22,969 nt of DNA, taken from the NCBI GenBank assembly GCA_030765605.1, contig JAVCCG010000070.1, forward strand, positions 1 through 22,969, given 5' to 3'. A program made the translations under genes and the position numbers. This stretch comes from Candidatus Alcyoniella australis. GTDB taxonomy: Bacteria; Lernaellota; Lernaellaia; JAVCCG01; Alcyoniellaceae. The first letter of the stretch is position 1; each line of letters begins with the position of its first letter. Below the pieces are notes generated by a model. That model ran no database searches. It was not told the origin of the DNA and saw nothing but the letters and a program-made list of their open reading frames with translations. Of this stretch, positions 10,701-18,920 are shown piece by piece.

Positions 10701-12023
10701 ATGAAGCGTAACGCACTGTTCGCCCTGACGTTGATCGCCGTGCTGGCGATCGCTCTGCCCTGCGCAGCCAAAGACTACCAGGCAATGCAACGCCTGATCG
10801 ACCAATCCGGCGCCGCCTGGACCGTAGGTCACACGTCGCTCTCCGAGTACAGCCGCGACCAGATGGGATTGCTGTGCAACCTCGACTTCGCCATGCCGGT
10901 TCAGCCCGCGAGCGACCTGGACCAGATCGAGCTGTCCAAGGACATACCCGCGCACCTGGACTGGCGCGATTTCAACGGCAACAACTACATGACACCGATC
11001 AAGGATCAGCATCCCTGCGGCACCTGCGCCACGTTCTCGTCCGTGGGCGCCACCGAGGCGCTGCTCAAGATCGCCGTTGACAATCCGTTCGTGGAACCCG
11101 ACATCTCGGAGCAGCACATCTACTCCTGCGCCGGCGAATTCCCCTACACCTTCTTCCATCCGCTGAACGTGCTCCAGGGCCAGGGCGCGCCCGACGAGAC
11201 CTGCTTCCCCTACGACTGCCCGGTGCAAGGCTACCGCCCGCCGTGCGAAGACTCCTGCGCCGACTGGGCGTCCCGCACCTTTTTCATCGACGGCTATCAA
11301 GCGCTGATGTTCCCCACGACCGAGCAGATCCTCACCGCGGTGCAGGACGGCCCGGTGGTGGCCGGTTTCCAGGTCTTCTCCGATTTCCAGGACTACACCG
11401 GCGGCGTGTACGAGCACGTCTACGGCGAGCTGCTCGGGGGCCACGGCGTGGTCATCGCGGGCTACGACATGGCCGAGCAATACTGGATCTGCAAAAATTC
11501 CTGGGGAACCCAATGGGGCGAGGAAGGCTGGTTCAAAATCCGCTGGAGCACCGAGCTGCTGGGCTTCGGCTATCAGACCTTCGATATCTTCACCAGCTAC
11601 GAGTCGTTCTGCGGACAGCACGTCGAGCCGACCATCGGCTCGCTGGAACTGCTCAACGCCGGTCCCGAACTGGCCCAAGGCGAACAGCTTGAGGTGCGCT
11701 TCGAGTTTATCGACACTGACGCCGACATGCGCGGCGGCGAGCTGTGGCACCAAGTGGACGAGGGCGAGGCCCAGCGCTTTGCCGAGCCGCTACGCGAGTT
11801 CGTTGGCACCCAGTCCGACCCGCTGGACCTGCCGAGCTTTTCGTTCTCCGGTGATTACGCGCCGGGTCCGCACACGCTCAAGGTCTGGCTGGCCGACGTC
11901 TGCGGATTGCAAAGCACCCAGGCAACTGTCGAGTTTACCGTAGAGGGCGAGGTGCCAGGCGATGACGACGACGACGAATCGGCCGACGACGACGATGACG
12001 ACGACTCGAGCTGTGGATGCTGA
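10701..12023 (+). CDS. Secreted papain-family (C1) cysteine peptidase with Asp-rich Cys-terminal tail
   Basis: A 440-residue exported protease. A Sec signal peptide covers residues 1-23 (LTLIAVLAIALPCAA). A short pro-region leads to the catalytic domain starting near LDWRDFNGN. The papain triad is complete: Cys109 in CGTCATF with the oxyanion Gln in KDQ, His248 in GGHGVVIAGYD and Asn266 in KNSWGTQWGEEGW. A beta-sandwich-like domain follows at about residues 310-415. The end is exceptional: residues 421-435 are 12 Asp among 15 residues, then SSCGC and stop. No membrane helix or basic cluster follows, unlike LPXTG or PEP-CTERM-type signals. The subtilisin-like protease at 15139-17430 has an equivalent tail. 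A ribosome site AGGAG precedes the ATG. It sits between glpK and an overlapping hydrolase gene. Confidence 0.92.
   Translation: MKRNALFALTLIAVLAIALPCAAKDYQAMQRLIDQSGAAWTVGHTSLSEYSRDQMGLLCNLDFAMPVQPASDLDQIELSKDIPAHLDWRDFNGNNYMTPIKDQHPCGTCATFSSVGATEALLKIAVDNPFVEPDISEQHIYSCAGEFPYTFFHPLNVLQGQGAPDETCFPYDCPVQGYRPPCEDSCADWASRTFFIDGYQALMFPTTEQILTAVQDGPVVAGFQVFSDFQDYTGGVYEHVYGELLGGHGVVIAGYDMAEQYWICKNSWGTQWGEEGWFKIRWSTELLGFGYQTFDIFTSYESFCGQHVEPTIGSLELLNAGPELAQGEQLEVRFEFIDTDADMRGGELWHQVDEGEAQRFAEPLREFVGTQSDPLDLPSFSFSGDYAPGPHTLKVWLADVCGLQSTQATVEFTVEGEVPGDDDDDESADDDDDDDSSCGC
11961..12005 (+). repeat. GAC/GAT codon tract encoding the Asp-rich tail of the C1 peptidase
   Basis: Fifteen codons encode 12 Asp interrupted by Glu-Ser-Ala. 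The trinucleotide repeat could change length by replication slippage without shifting frame. It ends six codons before the stop and partly precedes the GTG start of the next gene. Confidence 0.8.
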
Positions 12024-12765
12024 TCCGCAAATAGTCCGCATCGAGGGCTGGACCGCTAACGGCTATCTGATAGTCGGCCAAAAGATCGTGGTTGTGGACC
12101 CCGGCGTTCCGCGCCTGGTGCGCTCCATGCTGCACTACGTGGAACACGAGCTGAAACGTCCGGCCTCGGACATCTCCTGGGCCACGGTCACGCACTATCA
12201 CAACGACCACGTGGGCGGGATGGGCCTGCTGCAACAGATCAGCGGCTGCCAAGTGGCGCTGCCCGCCTTGGCCCGACCGTTTGTGGAACAGGGCGCGCGC
12301 ATCCCGTTTCCGCGGCCATTGCGCTGGCTGCACATGCTCGCAGTACACAACCGACAGCGCAATCCCACGCCGACCCCGCGCGACGCTTGGCAGACCGAGA
12401 AGATCGGCCTGCCGCTGATCTCGCCGCGACCGAAATTCGACGTGCATGCCTGGCTCGATGAGGGCGACGCGCTGCCCGACGCGCCTGGGTTCACAGCGCT
12501 GTTCACACCCGGACACAGTGCGGACAGCACCTGCCTGTGGCACGAACAATCCGGCTCACTGTTCTCCGGCGACATGCTGCTGGGCAACTTCGAGGGCCCG
12601 CCCCAGGCCAACGCTTACTGCCTGAGCCGCACCAAAACCATCGCCAGCCTGCAACGCCTGGCCGACCTACCGATCAAACGCCTATTCCCCGGCCACGGCC
12701 CACTGCATAGCGGGGAGTACCTCGCCAAAGAAGCGGTCGAGACGCTGAGGACGGATCTGGTTTAG
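12013..12765 (+). CDS. Metallo-beta-lactamase-fold hydrolase
   Basis: A 250-residue MBL-fold metallohydrolase. Metal ligands are visible: HYHNDHVGG (His61, His63, Asp65, His66), a third-ligand region TPGHSADST, FSGDMLLG (bridging Asp) and the late PGHGP histidine. The layout suits glyoxalase II-like or LACTB2-like hydrolases; the substrate cannot be read. The GTG at 12013 is chosen because the protein then reads VDADPQIVRIEGWTANGYLI, a natural first strand; a longer frame begins with out-of-frame translation of the neighbour's Asp codons (Thr-rich) and is artificial. It overlaps the peptidase stop by 11 bases, implying coupling. No signal peptide, so cytoplasmic. A hairpin starts 11 bases after the stop and may end the operon. 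Confidence 0.88.
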   Translation: MDADPQIVRIEGWTANGYLIVGQKIVVVDPGVPRLVRSMLHYVEHELKRPASDISWATVTHYHNDHVGGMGLLQQISGCQVALPALARPFVEQGARIPFPRPLRWLHMLAVHNRQRNPTPTPRDAWQTEKIGLPLISPRPKFDVHAWLDEGDALPDAPGFTALFTPGHSADSTCLWHEQSGSLFSGDMLLGNFEGPPQANAYCLSRTKTIASLQRLADLPIKRLFPGHGPLHSGEYLAKEAVETLRTDLV

Positions 12766-13249: not shown

Positions 13250-14614
13250 ATGGATACATCGGTTAATCTTGAGTTGGCAAAATTAACGATAGGGCGTATT
13301 TTAGATGAAGAACCTCTTGATGCAGAACGTATCGATGTTGAAATTAAAACTTTTCTCAATCCGAAAAAAAAGGCAAACCATGCAATTATAGCTAAAGCAG
13401 TAGCTGCATTAGCTAACGGTGGTGGTGGTATTATTATTATTGGTTTCATCCAAAATGATAGCCGCTACAGAGAAGAAAATTCTAGCGCAGAAACAAAGCC
13501 CAGTGTTTGGAACCAAACAGAGCTAAACAGGGCGCTTGGAAATTTTCTTGAGCCAAATATAGAAACTAGACTGACTTTCTTGTCTGGAAAAATATCCGAT
13601 CATCCTTGTCTGCTTGTTCCTTCTCATGGAAGCACTCCTATAATTTTTAAAAGAGACTTTGATGCCTTCACACGTGGGACCATATTTATTAGGCGTCCTG
13701 GACCTGAAAGTGCACCAATTTCTTCCTATGAAGAGTGGCGAGAGCTGATAGAACGCTGTACAGTCAATGACCGAGAGAGACTTGCATCAATAATCCGAAG
13801 AATTTTAATTCCTACTGAACAACCAACCACATCGCAGGAGATCGAGAATAGTTTTCAGAAAAAACTTGTTGATTGTGATCATAGCTATGAGAAACTAATC
13901 AAAGAACATAAATCGGATATTCCTAAAGATATTCAACGGTCTTTCATATTGAACGGCAGAAGGACTGTGGCCTTTCAAGTATTCCCTCCCAAGAGAGCTG
14001 GTGATCTTAACGACCTGCGAAACGCTTTACTAGAGGCTGTAGGCCGCGAAACGGGATGGCCCCACGGTAGATTTCCTTCTCCTCCTGATGAACCAAAAGT
14101 AATCAACGGGGGAATAGAGTCTTTTAAAGTAACCACGTTACGTAGCTTTCCGTCACATACAAATATAGATTTCTGGCAGGCGCGACCAAGTGGATTCTTC
14201 TACGCTACTAGAGTATACGAAGAAGACAGGGAGCTTAGACGCCAACAAAAATGTTTGATCTGGAATCTACCGATCTGGCGTCTAGGAGAGGCTATCTTGC
14301 ATGCTGTTAGATTTGCAAATGCCTATTCTCCAAAATTCGACACAATAACCGGTTATGTAAGATTCGATGATCTTGCAGGACGGATCTTGGCTTGTGACTC
14401 ACAAGGCCTCCGCTCAGATGCGGAAGATCATGGATGTAATACAATGAAATGGCATAGATATTTTTCAATACCATCAGGTTTTTCGACAGAAAATCTGCCA
14501 GACTTATTACGTGAGATTCTGAAGGACTTTTATGCTCACTTTGACTTTTTCAACGTCAGCTTAGATGAATATGAGCAGGAAATTAATGCGATGATTCATC
14601 GTCGTGTGTATTGA
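13250..14614 (+). CDS. AlbA_2 / Schlafen-like DNA-binding domain protein
   Basis: A 454-residue protein. Residues about 26-150 match the AlbA_2 (Schlafen AAA_4-like) nucleic-acid-binding domain: RIDVEIKTFL (Glu31, Lys33), AIIAKAVAALANGGGGIIIIG (residues 45-65, split here by the usual glycine run), and FTRGTIFIRRPGPESAPIS near 140-155, the RxGS/T-like end of the domain. The C-terminal 300 residues have no motif I recognise and lack an AAA ATPase P-loop or winged-helix signature I can see. AlbA_2 proteins occur in transcription regulators and in phage-defence or toxin-type genes; which applies is unknown. The ATG follows AAGGA by six bases. Codon use is AT-rich unlike both flanks, so acquisition by transfer is likely. 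Confidence 0.8.
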   Translation: MDTSVNLELAKLTIGRILDEEPLDAERIDVEIKTFLNPKKKANHAIIAKAVAALANGGGGIIIIGFIQNDSRYREENSSAETKPSVWNQTELNRALGNFLEPNIETRLTFLSGKISDHPCLLVPSHGSTPIIFKRDFDAFTRGTIFIRRPGPESAPISSYEEWRELIERCTVNDRERLASIIRRILIPTEQPTTSQEIENSFQKKLVDCDHSYEKLIKEHKSDIPKDIQRSFILNGRRTVAFQVFPPKRAGDLNDLRNALLEAVGRETGWPHGRFPSPPDEPKVINGGIESFKVTTLRSFPSHTNIDFWQARPSGFFYATRVYEEDRELRRQQKCLIWNLPIWRLGEAILHAVRFANAYSPKFDTITGYVRFDDLAGRILACDSQGLRSDAEDHGCNTMKWHRYFSIPSGFSTENLPDLLREILKDFYAHFDFFNVSLDEYEQEINAMIHRRVY

Positions 14615-15138: not shown

Positions 15139-17430
15139 TCAGCCGCAACAGCCGTCGTCGCTGCTGCCTTTGGTGCCGGTAGATGCGTCGTCGTCATCGT
15201 CAGCATCGTCGTCGCCCGTATCGTCATCATCGTCCGTGTCGTCGTCATCATCATCGTCGTCATCGGCGCCGTCGCAGTCCGGGTCGTCCAGGTCGGTCAA
15301 GTCGTCGCAGTCGTTGTCGATTCCGTCGTCGCAGACCTCGTCGTGTCCGGGGTAGGCCTCGGCCTCCTCGTCGTTGCAGTCGTCGCCGCCGCAGATCTCG
15401 GCCAGATGGCCGTCGTTGTCAGCGTCGCAGGAGGCGCTGCCCGCGGCCGGGGCCACCACCGAGAACGTCTGCGGGCCTTGGGGCACGGTTGTCCCCGCGA
15501 CCTTGACCAGGTACAGGCCGGTAGTCGGCACGGTGAACAGCACCTGCTCGATGTTGTCGATGGTGTTCACGCCGGTTGTGGCGTTGGAGCTCGGGCTTGC
15601 GGGGTTAAGCACCCAGGGGTAGTAGACCGTGTCGTCGGGGCCGATCACGGTCAGGTCGAGGTCGTTGACCAAGTTGGGCACGGTGTTGGGGGTTCCCGGA
15701 TAGTCGTCCCAGGCGATTGTCACGCGCATGCTCGCACCGGCGTCGCGCTGGACCGGGATCAGCCATTCGCCGCCCTGGCTGAGGCTTGCTTCGGCGAAGT
15801 TGTCGTTGAGGATGTTAGCCACAGGGTAGAGCGCCAGCACCTTGCCGTAGCCGTAGACATAGTCCGGGCCGAATCGACCCAGGTCGACCGCCGAGTGCGC
15901 CAGCAGCGCCTTGACCGTCGAGGGGACCAGGATCTGCGGGTTGACCGAGGCGTTGGCCTGGAGCATCAGCGCCACGACCCCGGCCACTGCCGGGCTGGCC
16001 ATCGAGGTGCCGCACATCGTGGTGTAGGTGTCGTAGCGCACCGTGCTGGTCACGCCGTAGTCGCTGCTGCTCTGGCAGCCCGGGCCGCTGATGTCGGGAC
16101 GCATCCGGCCATCGTCGGTGGGACCCCACGAGCTGAAACTGGTCATCGAGTCGTCGTTGGAGTTGATCGCGCCGACCACCACCGCGTTCTTAGTGGCCGA
16201 GGGAACCGGTATCGTGGAATAGGTGGTGCCGCAACGCCCTGAGCCGCGCTCGTTGCCGCCGGCCCAGACCACCGAATAGGCGCGTCCCAGCGATCCGCGC
16301 ACGATGGCGTCGATCAGCGCGGCCGAACTCTCGTAGTCGCCTTCCCACGAGCAGTCGTTGCCGTTGGACGCGATGTTCGAGCCGATCGAGTTGTTGCTGA
16401 CGTGGGTCGCGGCGTTGATGCCGGCCTGGTAGTCGGACTGGATGTCGCCCGGGTTGTTGTAGAAGAACGGGAACGAGCCGCTGAACACGCGCGAGTAAAT
16501 CAACGCCCCCGGGGCCATGCCCGCGTAGTTGCCGCTTGAGCGCGTACCGTCGCCGGCCACTGTGCCCGCCACGTGTGTCGCGTGGGCGCCGTAGTAGCTG
16601 GACTCGCCCTGGGTTACGCGCGAGCCGAAGTCGTCGTGGGTCGAGTCGACCAGCCCCGCGTCGTAGACGAACACGCGCACGCCCGAGCCGTTAAACCCAT
16701 ACGGCGCGGCCCAGACCGTCTCCACGCCCATGTCGGCGCGCGCGCTGTTGTTCAGCGGTCCCCAGGCCGGAGAGACCTGGTCGACCCACATCACCGCGTC
16801 GTCGAGCACCAGTTCTTCAATATCGAGCGGGTCCAGAGCCACGATCAGCGCGTTGATCGCGTCGGCCGCGTCGACCACTTCGCCGTAATAGCCGGCGATC
16901 AGCTCGGCCTCAAGCGGCGCCACGTCGGGGTGGAACATCGCCACTACGTGTACGCGCCCCTGGTCGTCAATTGCAAAGTCCTCGAACTCATTCTCGATGA
17001 TGCGCTGCGTCACTTTGTCGCCGTACTCAATGGCTCCGGCCCAACGCAGCTCGGGGAACGCCTCGGGCGTCAGGGCGGAACTGCCATCAAGCGCCGCGAA
17101 CCAAGCGCGGTCCGGCACCCAGCTGAGTAGCTCGAGTCCGCGATCAGCCAGCTCCGCGCGCTGTTCGGCGGTCGGCACCTCATCGAGCTGCACCAGCAAG
17201 TGCATCCGCTCGCCGCCATCAAGGGTTGCGGCCAGCTGCGTCAGCTGCGGGTCGATCCCCTGCTCGGGCACGTACATCCGCGACTGTGTCTTAATTGTGT
17301 ACGGCTCGGCATTTAGAAACGAGAACCGCTCTGCGTCCGCGGCCCAACTCAGGGCCGGCAGACACATCACCGCTGCCGTGGCCAGCAGAATCGCCGCTGC
17401 CACAGCGTTCGAATTCGATTTATTTCGCAT
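15139..17430 (-). CDS. Secreted subtilisin-like (S8) serine protease with MopE-like motif and Asp-rich Cys-terminal tail
   Basis: A 763-residue exported multidomain protease. A signal peptide covers residues 1-31 (LLATAAVMCLPALSWA). A pro-domain of about 200 residues precedes the S8 domain, whose triad is intact: Asp257 in VYDAGLVDSTHDD, His283 in GAHATHVAGTVAG and Ser476 in CGTSMASPAVAG, with oxyanion Asn in SNNSIGSN. A P-domain-like beta-sandwich follows (MRVTIAWDDYPGTPNTV, near 575-665). Residues about 668-720 carry a MopE-type Cys/Asp metal-binding motif (DDCNDEEAEAYPGHDEVCDD). Residues about 724-763 are an Asp-rich tract ending SSDDGCCG and stop. I chose the ATG at 17430, preceded by AAAGGAG; a TTG eight codons upstream lies before the ribosome site. 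Confidence 0.95.
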   Translation of the reverse strand: MRNKSNSNAVAAAILLATAAVMCLPALSWAADAERFSFLNAEPYTIKTQSRMYVPEQGIDPQLTQLAATLDGGERMHLLVQLDEVPTAEQRAELADRGLELLSWVPDRAWFAALDGSSALTPEAFPELRWAGAIEYGDKVTQRIIENEFEDFAIDDQGRVHVVAMFHPDVAPLEAELIAGYYGEVVDAADAINALIVALDPLDIEELVLDDAVMWVDQVSPAWGPLNNSARADMGVETVWAAPYGFNGSGVRVFVYDAGLVDSTHDDFGSRVTQGESSYYGAHATHVAGTVAGDGTRSSGNYAGMAPGALIYSRVFSGSFPFFYNNPGDIQSDYQAGINAATHVSNNSIGSNIASNGNDCSWEGDYESSAALIDAIVRGSLGRAYSVVWAGGNERGSGRCGTTYSTIPVPSATKNAVVVGAINSNDDSMTSFSSWGPTDDGRMRPDISGPGCQSSSDYGVTSTVRYDTYTTMCGTSMASPAVAGVVALMLQANASVNPQILVPSTVKALLAHSAVDLGRFGPDYVYGYGKVLALYPVANILNDNFAEASLSQGGEWLIPVQRDAGASMRVTIAWDDYPGTPNTVPNLVNDLDLTVIGPDDTVYYPWVLNPASPSSNATTGVNTIDNIEQVLFTVPTTGLYLVKVAGTTVPQGPQTFSVVAPAAGSASCDADNDGHLAEICGGDDCNDEEAEAYPGHDEVCDDGIDNDCDDLTDLDDPDCDGADDDDDDDDDTDDDDDTGDDDADDDDDASTGTKGSSDDGCCG
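15187..15264 (-). repeat. GAC/GAT codon tract encoding the Asp-rich tail of the S8 protease
   Basis: Twenty-six codons, mostly GAC and GAT, encode Asp with Thr, Gly and Ala interruptions. The tract is the counterpart of 11961-12005 in the C1 peptidase and could vary in length by in-frame slippage. It is not a CRISPR: units are three bases with no spacers. Confidence 0.85.
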
Positions 17431-17552: not shown

Positions 17553-18920
17553 TTAACCTGCGTCTTTTCTTGGCCTCTCACGCCACAGGACAAGCGCGGC
17601 ACCCAGTACCATGAGGTACACTGCATTCATGTGCCGTGGTTGATATTGCAAAAAGGATACGATTAGAAGCTTGTAAAAAATGAAACAGGCTCCAAGACCT
17701 ATCAGCAACTTGCGGGACGATTCGCGGTATATATAAAAAGCCTTTGACCAAAAAACCAACAAAACGATAAAAATCAGACAATAGATTTTGGCTATCATGA
17801 AGTTCACGGCCAAAGCCCCGGCCTCTGTAAACCGAACGCTTTTAATCCCCTGCCATCTGCCGACCTGCTGAGTTAAAACCCAGATCTGGTTCAGGCGCTC
17901 CTTTTCTATTGTCAGGTTGGCATACTCACCGGTATACACTCCGCCGATCAGACTTCTAAGTAAATTGTGCCCCACTTTGATTATATAGGCACCGGGGTGA
18001 TCCTTTATCAGGCGTATGGTTGCGCCCTTGAGCAACGCTTCCCCCTCAGTCGAATACGGATCATTTACTCCATGTCTCGCAGTATATCTCCATCCATCGT
18101 CGTCAACATGTTTGATTCCCCAGGGATTGCCGGGCAGCTGCCCAAGGGAGATATATGCAACCAAGCCTCCGTTGGTGGCGGTCAAGCGCCATTGCCCGTC
18201 GTAGAGGAATGATCGTGCGGACCACGGTATAAGTAAAACCACGGTCGCGACCGTGATTGCGCCGCAAAGAATGGCAACCCTGCGCCTGTAATTGCGAAAG
18301 TGCGGCAGAATTGAAAAGGAAAGAATGAGTATCGGCACAAACAGATAATCGCTACGAAAATTGCCGATGACCCCCATCAGCAACGCGGTGGGGATCAATG
18401 CTTTTAACGAGCCTTTTTCGATATAACGCACCCCGTAACAGAATACGAAAAACAACAGCGCGTCTACTATTGCATCAGGTATTTTCGCCGACATAATAAC
18501 AACGAAAGGTAAAAGTAGAATTAGGTGTCGATAGCGATATTCGAGTTTAAATAATTTATAGAAAAGTTTGATCGCCACAATGCAAAGCAATCCTTGGATC
18601 AACAACAGGACCAGCCCGGGATGGCCAACAGAAAGTCCGAGCATTACCAGCAGCGGGTATCCCCAGAGGGGATAAAAAGCCGGCTGATTTGAATCCGCCC
18701 GGTAGGAATAGCCGTGGCCATTTAAAATATTTTGTGCCAAAGCCACATGTCTATCTTGATAAATCCCTTGTTCAATAAGATGGTTTTTATTTAAGAAAAA
18801 ACAACCGGCGACAAAGGCGAGCAGAACAATAGTGAAACAGACGTTTTTCCGCGACCTGTTGCCGAACTTTATCATGCGCTCAGACACGATCGACTGTCTT
18901 CCGTCTGCATTCTTATCCAT
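17553..18920 (-). CDS. Multi-pass membrane protein, GT-C (PMT/ArnT-like) glycosyltransferase candidate
   Basis: A 455-residue integral membrane protein with about 9-11 hydrophobic segments. The large loop after the first helix contains EQGIYQDRHVALAQNILNGH then GYSYR and FYPLWGYPLL, which resembles the acidic-residue loop and the xxYPPL-like motif of polyprenyl-phosphate-dependent GT-C glycosyltransferases. A soluble insertion near 240-320 (LGQLPGNPWGIKHVDDDGWR) and the closing QPRHMNAVYLMVLGAALVL also fit such enzymes. It could transfer a lipid-linked sugar in the periplasm. The ATG at 18920 has no strong ribosome site; a Met at residue 16 is an alternative. The gene is clearly AT-richer than its neighbours, suggesting transfer. 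Family assignment is moderate. Confidence 0.7.
   Translation of the reverse strand: MDKNADGRQSIVSERMIKFGNRSRKNVCFTIVLLAFVAGCFFLNKNHLIEQGIYQDRHVALAQNILNGHGYSYRADSNQPAFYPLWGYPLLVMLGLSVGHPGLVLLLIQGLLCIVAIKLFYKLFKLEYRYRHLILLLPFVVIMSAKIPDAIVDALLFFVFCYGVRYIEKGSLKALIPTALLMGVIGNFRSDYLFVPILILSFSILPHFRNYRRRVAILCGAITVATVVLLIPWSARSFLYDGQWRLTATNGGLVAYISLGQLPGNPWGIKHVDDDGWRYTARHGVNDPYSTEGEALLKGATIRLIKDHPGAYIIKVGHNLLRSLIGGVYTGEYANLTIEKERLNQIWVLTQQVGRWQGIKSVRFTEAGALAVNFMIAKIYCLIFIVLLVFWSKAFYIYRESSRKLLIGLGACFIFYKLLIVSFLQYQPRHMNAVYLMVLGAALVLWRERPRKDAG

Follow-up and report, generated by a model that had tools for sequence, protein, structure and literature searches.

A helix-free C-terminal cysteine tail on signal-peptide proteins of Candidatus Lernaellota and its resemblance to MYXO-CTERM

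Two peptidases with acidic, cysteine-containing C-termini

The window analysed here, i.e., the whole 22,969-nucleotide stretch of contig JAVCCG010000070.1 from Candidatus Alcyoniella australis (the source genome, G000), encodes two predicted exported peptidases whose polypeptides end in an acidic linker and a short cysteine motif. This ending is called the bare tail (or bare tag) below. The features concerned are as follows.

10701–12023, plus strand: gene for an exported papain-like (C1) peptidase of 440 aa with a bare cysteine tag (Peptidase_C1, E = 8e-38)
10701–10772, plus strand: Sec-type signal peptide, MKRNALFALTLIAVLAIALPCAAK, end approximate (sequence)
10944–11549, plus strand: papain catalytic domain, residues 82–283 (Pfam match; AlphaFold model mostly at pLDDT 70–91)
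11628–11942, plus strand: C-terminal all-beta (sandwich-like) domain, residues ~310–414 (AlphaFold strands from E311–317 to E408–414)
11961–12005, plus strand: acidic linker, DDDDDESADDDDDDD, residues 421–435, 12 Asp in 15 residues, disordered (sequence, AlphaFold model)
12006–12023, plus strand: tag core Ser-Ser-Cys438-Gly-Cys440-stop, with Cys438 as the invariant residue (homologue alignment, 106 tails tabulated)
15139–17430, minus strand: gene for an exported subtilisin-like (S8) peptidase whose tag has the CCG form (Peptidase_S8, E = 9e-44)
15142–15264, minus strand: acidic linker and terminal Cys-Cys-Gly of the S8 peptidase (sequence)

The whole tail of the C1 peptidase is GDDDDDESADDDDDDDSSCGC, and an earlier sequence-only reading of this DNA had described it exactly, i.e., as 12 Asp in 15 residues followed by SSCGC and a stop. 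The Cys438-Gly-Cys440 codons occupy 12012–12020 and the TGA stop 12021–12023. In the AlphaFold model of this protein there is no secondary structure past residue 414, and the pLDDT is below 50 from residue 426. The catalytic residues C109, H248 and N266 are intact and invariant in an alignment with 11 homologues (33–52% identity), every one of which opens with a signal peptide. Beside these catalytic residues, Cys438 is among the few positions that do not vary in the same alignment; Cys440 is not invariant, and the acidic linker varies freely in both length and sequence. A gene for a metallo-beta-lactamase-fold hydrolase lies at 12013–12765 of the window, and its probable GTG start at 12013 sits within the Cys-Gly-Cys codons of the C1 peptidase, so that the two genes overlap. 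That the tail is an artefact of this overlap was ruled out, since homologues elsewhere retain the cysteine.

The C-terminal end of the S8 peptidase is DDDDDASTGTKGSSDDGCCG, the last residues being SSDDGCCG-stop. S8 homologues bearing bare tails are present in all six relatives of the source genome that were compared, and those homologues whose ends could be read all show the acidic linker with a cysteine, except for one distant subtilase (L335), which is without any such tail. The S8 gene is flanked by an AlbA_2/Schlafen-type gene (13250–14614, GC 41%) and by a gene for a polytopic membrane protein with no Pfam match (17553–18920, GC 47%), and both of these look acquired, the GC content around them being 63–67%.

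Occurrence and anatomy of the bare tail

The comparison set consisted of the source genome, six relatives of the same class and 72 genomes outside the class; members of the phylum beyond the class of the source genome were absent from the genomes examined. By inference, the source genome and its six relatives belong to Ca. Lernaellota/FEN-1099: one relative (G005) is Deltaproteobacteria bacterium FR_14 (JAOSJX), whose contigs are labelled FR-FEN-1099, and Candidatus Lernaellota (alias Podoxiota), with seven species, bears FEN-1099 as its placeholder name (PMC11382960, PMC13248872).

An unbiased sample of 20-kb stretches, 40 from the source genome and 20 from each of two relatives (~1.44 Mb), was picked without regard to tails and read with simple ORF calls. 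In this sample from three genomes, a cysteine was found within the last four residues of 20 of 23 Asp-rich C-termini, compared with 90 of 1163 other ORFs, giving an odds ratio of 79 (Fisher p = 6e-19). Within the source-genome part of the sample, tails occurred on 9 of 220 proteins with a signal peptide, as called by a simple home-made rule rather than SignalP, versus 0 of 261 others (p = 8e-4). Extrapolation from these samples gives estimates of ~60 tagged proteins in the source genome and 80–100 in the two relatives. When the DNA was searched for Asp tracts leading into CGC-stop or CCG-stop, many further source-genome proteins emerged, most of them with signal peptides.

The spread over genomes was followed with the DD..CGC-stop pattern, the counts of which include overlapping matches and, for the relatives, come from sequence read in part. 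It gave 18–107 matches per genome in the six class relatives (0–3 in the reversed control), and 0–9 per genome among the 72 genomes outside the class, where the nine matches in G022 were mostly copies of one out-of-frame repeat. The source genome, with 7 matches versus 4 in its control, is near background because CCG-stop is mostly used there. Among the matches listed from a scan of a wider collection, most were out-of-frame noise, and the in-frame tails came from FR_14 (L192, L195, L215, L242) and one isolated Holophagae ORF. Thus, as read from sequence, the bare tail is common to dozens of unrelated, predicted exported proteins per genome in all seven genomes of the phylum.

In total, 106 distinct bare tails were read, 38 in the source genome and 68 in the relatives. 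By the simple rule a signal peptide precedes 81 of them, and most of the other carriers are cut at the 5′ side. The carriers include C1, S8, C25 and M14 peptidases, metallophosphatases, Kelch and SBBP propellers, amidase/golvesin proteins and DUF6055 proteins. The proposal of a recurrent C-terminal tag on dozens of unrelated signal-peptide proteins is thereby borne out, and the tail is neither confined to the two window proteins nor freely lost, the cysteine being invariant across homologues. C25 peptidases elsewhere often bear a type IX secretion domain; the gingipain-like C25 peptidases with a bare cysteine tag observed here (L300:3612-6797, L306:377-3901, L317:1468-3729 and L295:3655-6342, the last assigned to C25 by homology only) have no tail resembling that domain.

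In the consensus of the tag, the acidic linker is followed by one to three Gly/Ser, a single invariant cysteine, zero to three further residues and the stop. CGC, which the sequence-only reading had taken as the conserved unit, is only the commonest ending (34 of 106), followed by CCG (24), CCGC (13), and then CGL, CG, CA, CS, CGK, CAV and others. The first cysteine lies at position −3 in 73 of the 106 tails and is preceded by Gly in 75, and zero to three residues follow the last cysteine, apart from one tail with five. Approximately one fifth of the tails contain a single cysteine, suggesting that the shared function needs one thiol; the second cysteine of CGC appears dispensable, and the conserved element is one cysteine. 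TGA, TAA and TAG are all used as stops after bare tails, which rules out stop-codon readthrough or selenocysteine as the origin of the endings.

Relation to MYXO-CTERM and myxosortase

The MYXO-CTERM signature of Myxococcus is a generic GCGC motif, or CCG in TraA, and its invariant cysteine is required for cleavage and has been proposed to be lipidated (PMC11980579). Myxosortase was proposed to cut just past this cysteine after lipidation (PMC11980579). Even in M. xanthus the lipid on MYXO-CTERM is itself a prediction. The bare tail shares several properties with this system (TIGR03901; MrtX NF040593, Myxococcus xanthus): it is carried by signal-peptide proteins of many families, with dozens of carriers per genome; it has a disordered linker of acidic and small residues; its signature is GCGC or CCG and includes an invariant cysteine; and most genomes with bare tails encode an Mrt-family CPBP protease. 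Unlike MYXO-CTERM, the bare tail has neither a transmembrane helix nor an Arg cluster, ends zero to three residues past the cysteine motif, has no match to TIGR03901, is found outside Myxococcota, and is present in a genome without a detectable myxosortase. Neither of the two window proteases matched TIGR03901 at E ≤ 1, the alignment of C1 peptidases did not match it at E ≤ 10, and the C1 peptidase has no NCBIfam match. Since the helix and the Arg cluster are absent and TIGR03901 is unmatched, the bare tail is not classed as a member of MYXO-CTERM, but it may work in the same way. LPXTG, PEP-CTERM and GlyGly-CTERM are comparable in that they direct C-terminal sorting of exported proteins; however, each has its own motif with a helix and a basic tail, none of which occurs on the C1 peptidase or the other bare-tail sequences inspected.

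Full MYXO-CTERM tails, i.e., an acidic linker, GCGC or CCG, a hydrophobic helix and an Arg tail, occur beside the bare ones in all seven genomes, on few proteins each, and TIGR03901 exceeded its cut-off for full tails in every genome. Examples are DDDDDDDGCGCSVTGGKASGFALPALMLMIGVFAYVLGLRRSR in G005 and DEDEEEEGCGCQTAKNGPTSATLIFVLLGMLFLLVARRRA in the source genome. The absence of a helix and a basic tail, pointed out in the sequence-only reading, therefore holds for the bare tails but not for four proteins read in the source genome, in which both follow the same linker and cysteine motif. The further suggestion that the tag is unrelated to known sorting signals does not stand, since its motif is the MYXO-CTERM signature and the same genomes hold full tails together with myxosortase-family proteases. 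Full tails were also observed on small proteins of ~140–290 aa, often in tandem clusters (L464 on G004:C122, L463 on G004:C6, G005:C25, and L462 on G003:C106).

The two forms also meet within one protein family. The source-genome S8 paralogue L299, which contains a MopE-like metal-binding motif, ends in a full MYXO-CTERM tail (GLCALSTSSSRVAASLLTALAALLFIARRRRAK), and in the S8 tree it falls within a clade of 100/100 support whose eight other members, the window protein included, are bare-tailed. This placement suggests a swap between the two forms of tail within a single family, and it is the only clear switch of tail type found between homologues.

A myxosortase-family CPBP protease is encoded in six of the seven genomes, five of which exceed the cut-off of the Mrt_core profile; the source genome does so narrowly (100.4 bits, cut-off 100), and G001 stays below it at 69 bits. 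All seven genomes are below the cut-off of the MrtX model (NF040593). In G003, which is 99% complete, no myxosortase was detectable with Mrt_core, yet bare tails are equally abundant there as in the other relatives, suggesting that bare tails can do without myxosortase. A gene adjoining the myxosortase gene in three genomes was considered as a possible transferase, which was ruled out because it encodes a TPR protein. Two tandem fusion genes lie beside the myxosortase gene in two relatives (L455:8990-14845 in G002 and L456:9759-15560 in G004), and were not seen next to it in the other genomes; the one that was scanned (L455:8990-11665) combines a carbamoyltransferase with a radical-SAM/SPASM region.

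Possible roles of the terminal cysteine

The observations above led us to favour, at no better than an even chance, an account in which the bare tail is a phylum-wide C-terminal sorting or anchoring tag corresponding to the recognition half of MYXO-CTERM minus its helix and basic tail, with the protein anchored through the cysteine, most probably by a lipid. Judged from sequence patterns, this residue is probably what holds the tagged proteins at the cell surface. The tagged protein would be exported by Sec, consistent with its signal peptide, and the acidic stalk, predicted to be disordered from the AlphaFold model and its variable length, would follow the folded domains and present one invariant cysteine, usually behind Gly, within the last few residues. 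Because this end resembles the C-terminus proposed to remain after myxosortase cleavage, a cut would be unnecessary; the identity with the cleavage product is approximate, as the number of residues past the cysteine varies (zero to three, rarely five). The thiol would next acquire a modification, either in the periplasm or at the membrane, most likely a lipid attached by an acyltransferase of the Lgt type or another kind, and display on the outer surface would follow, probably through type II secretion by analogy with the MYXO-CTERM model. The full MYXO-CTERM proteins of the same cells would arrive at this end state too, once the resident myxosortase-family protease had cut them.

Lipidation through the bare tail faces one difficulty, which counts against it: without a helix, the tail would have to gain access to a membrane-bound acyltransferase by other means. 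The bacterial lipoprotein pathway (Lgt, LspA, Lnt) is similar in that a cysteine thiol at the membrane-facing end is the proposed lipid site, and in that Lgt occurs in three copies here, but the bare-tag cysteine is C-terminal and has no lipobox, and most carriers have ordinary signal peptides. No lipobox was found in the C1 and S8 proteases of the window, and a lipobox-like sequence was seen in only 10 of the 81 signal-peptide carriers, few of them convincing. Three Lgt homologues are encoded in each of the seven genomes, and mostly one in the 72 others, two unrelated genomes among which also have three. This threefold Lgt amounts to a single phylum-level event and is a candidate lead to the tail-modifying enzyme only; the dedicated processing enzyme that the sequence-only reading had expected to accompany the bare tail was not identified. 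One Lgt copy of the source genome looks classical (RLGNFFNSEIVGR) and two are divergent (L434, L435 and L436), and the six relatives have only divergent, GCCYG-type copies (loci L437–L453 and L460). In eukaryotes, Rab-type -CC and -CXC ends are prenylated without proteolysis, beside a longer CaaX form that is cut by the CPBP-family protease Rce1. The likeness, a bare cysteine end left uncut alongside a longer one that a CPBP-family protease cleaves, is one of analogy only: the eukaryotic system is cytoplasmic, uses prenyl transferases and shows no homology, and serves here simply as a natural example of such a pairing. More specifically, and as a tentative proposal that is rather doubtful as it stands, a helix-free pathway of C-terminal lipidation or other thiol anchoring might exist, in which a dedicated enzyme, perhaps an extra Lgt homologue, recognises, in the periplasm, the soluble Gly-Cys end that the acidic stalk presents and thereby attaches dozens of proteins per cell to the outer surface, no proteolytic sorting step being involved.

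An exposed, invariant cysteine on a flexible stalk would be equally suitable for thiol crosslinking, i.e., a disulfide or thioether to a surface molecule or another tagged protein without any lipid, and this alternative would need no membrane-embedded enzyme and fits the two or three cysteines of many tails. It is nevertheless unlikely: a disulfide requires neither a position near the carboxyl end nor a preceding Gly nor identity with the MYXO-CTERM signature, no partner rich in cysteine was found, and the reported habitats of the phylum (digesters, sludge and permafrost soil) are presumably reducing, which would make bare disulfides fragile. Less probable again is that a secretion system reads the acidic, Cys-ended tail as an address label and makes no covalent use of the cysteine. 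The tail is C-terminal, disordered and restricted to signal-peptide proteins, and other secretion systems that read C-terminal signals offer a precedent; however, a single invariant cysteine amid otherwise free variation would be unexpected for a label of this kind, as would its interchangeability with a helix-bearing membrane tag.

Redox activity is known for CXC peptides, and Asp-rich linkers can possibly bind Ca, so the poly-Asp and CGC/CCG might bind metal ions or act as a CXC thiol-disulfide catalyst, and the MopE-like motif of L299 would suit a metal-related role. This reading is very improbable, since approximately one fifth of the tails have one cysteine only (e.g., those ending in CGL, CS, CA, CGK or CAV) and the second cysteine is unconserved among the C1 homologues; a CXC redox or two-cysteine metal motif in particular is ruled out by the single-cysteine tails. 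Finally, GAC/GAT repeats are prone to expansion and the linker is clearly unstable in length, as would be expected if acidic low-complexity ends without function had spread by duplication in a GC-rich genome and acquired cysteines by drift. We find this scarcely credible, given that the terminal cysteine is invariant over homologues at 33–52% identity, the tail occurs on unrelated folds and is absent from the other phyla compared, and all three stop codons are in use.

The C-terminal sorting tags described in the literature searched (LPXTG, PEP-CTERM, PGF-CTERM, GlyGly-CTERM and MYXO-CTERM) all bear a membrane helix, and each is cleaved by its own dedicated protease. No NCBIfam model covers the bare tail, and no description of it was found in that literature, which covered few preprints and no subscription papers. 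A tag reduced to the cysteine signature would mean that neither the helix nor the cut is essential, and if the helix-free anchoring pathway is true, cleavage and anchoring would be separable. Which enzyme modifies the invariant cysteine of MYXO-CTERM, and whether it does so independently of cleavage, has been stated as an open question (PMC11980579), and the bare tails, as natural substrates that carry the cysteine with nothing to cleave, bear on it. Anchoring of the bare tag through its cysteine would also offer a mechanism by which proteases, phosphatases and adhesin-like propellers might be displayed across a whole uncultured phylum.
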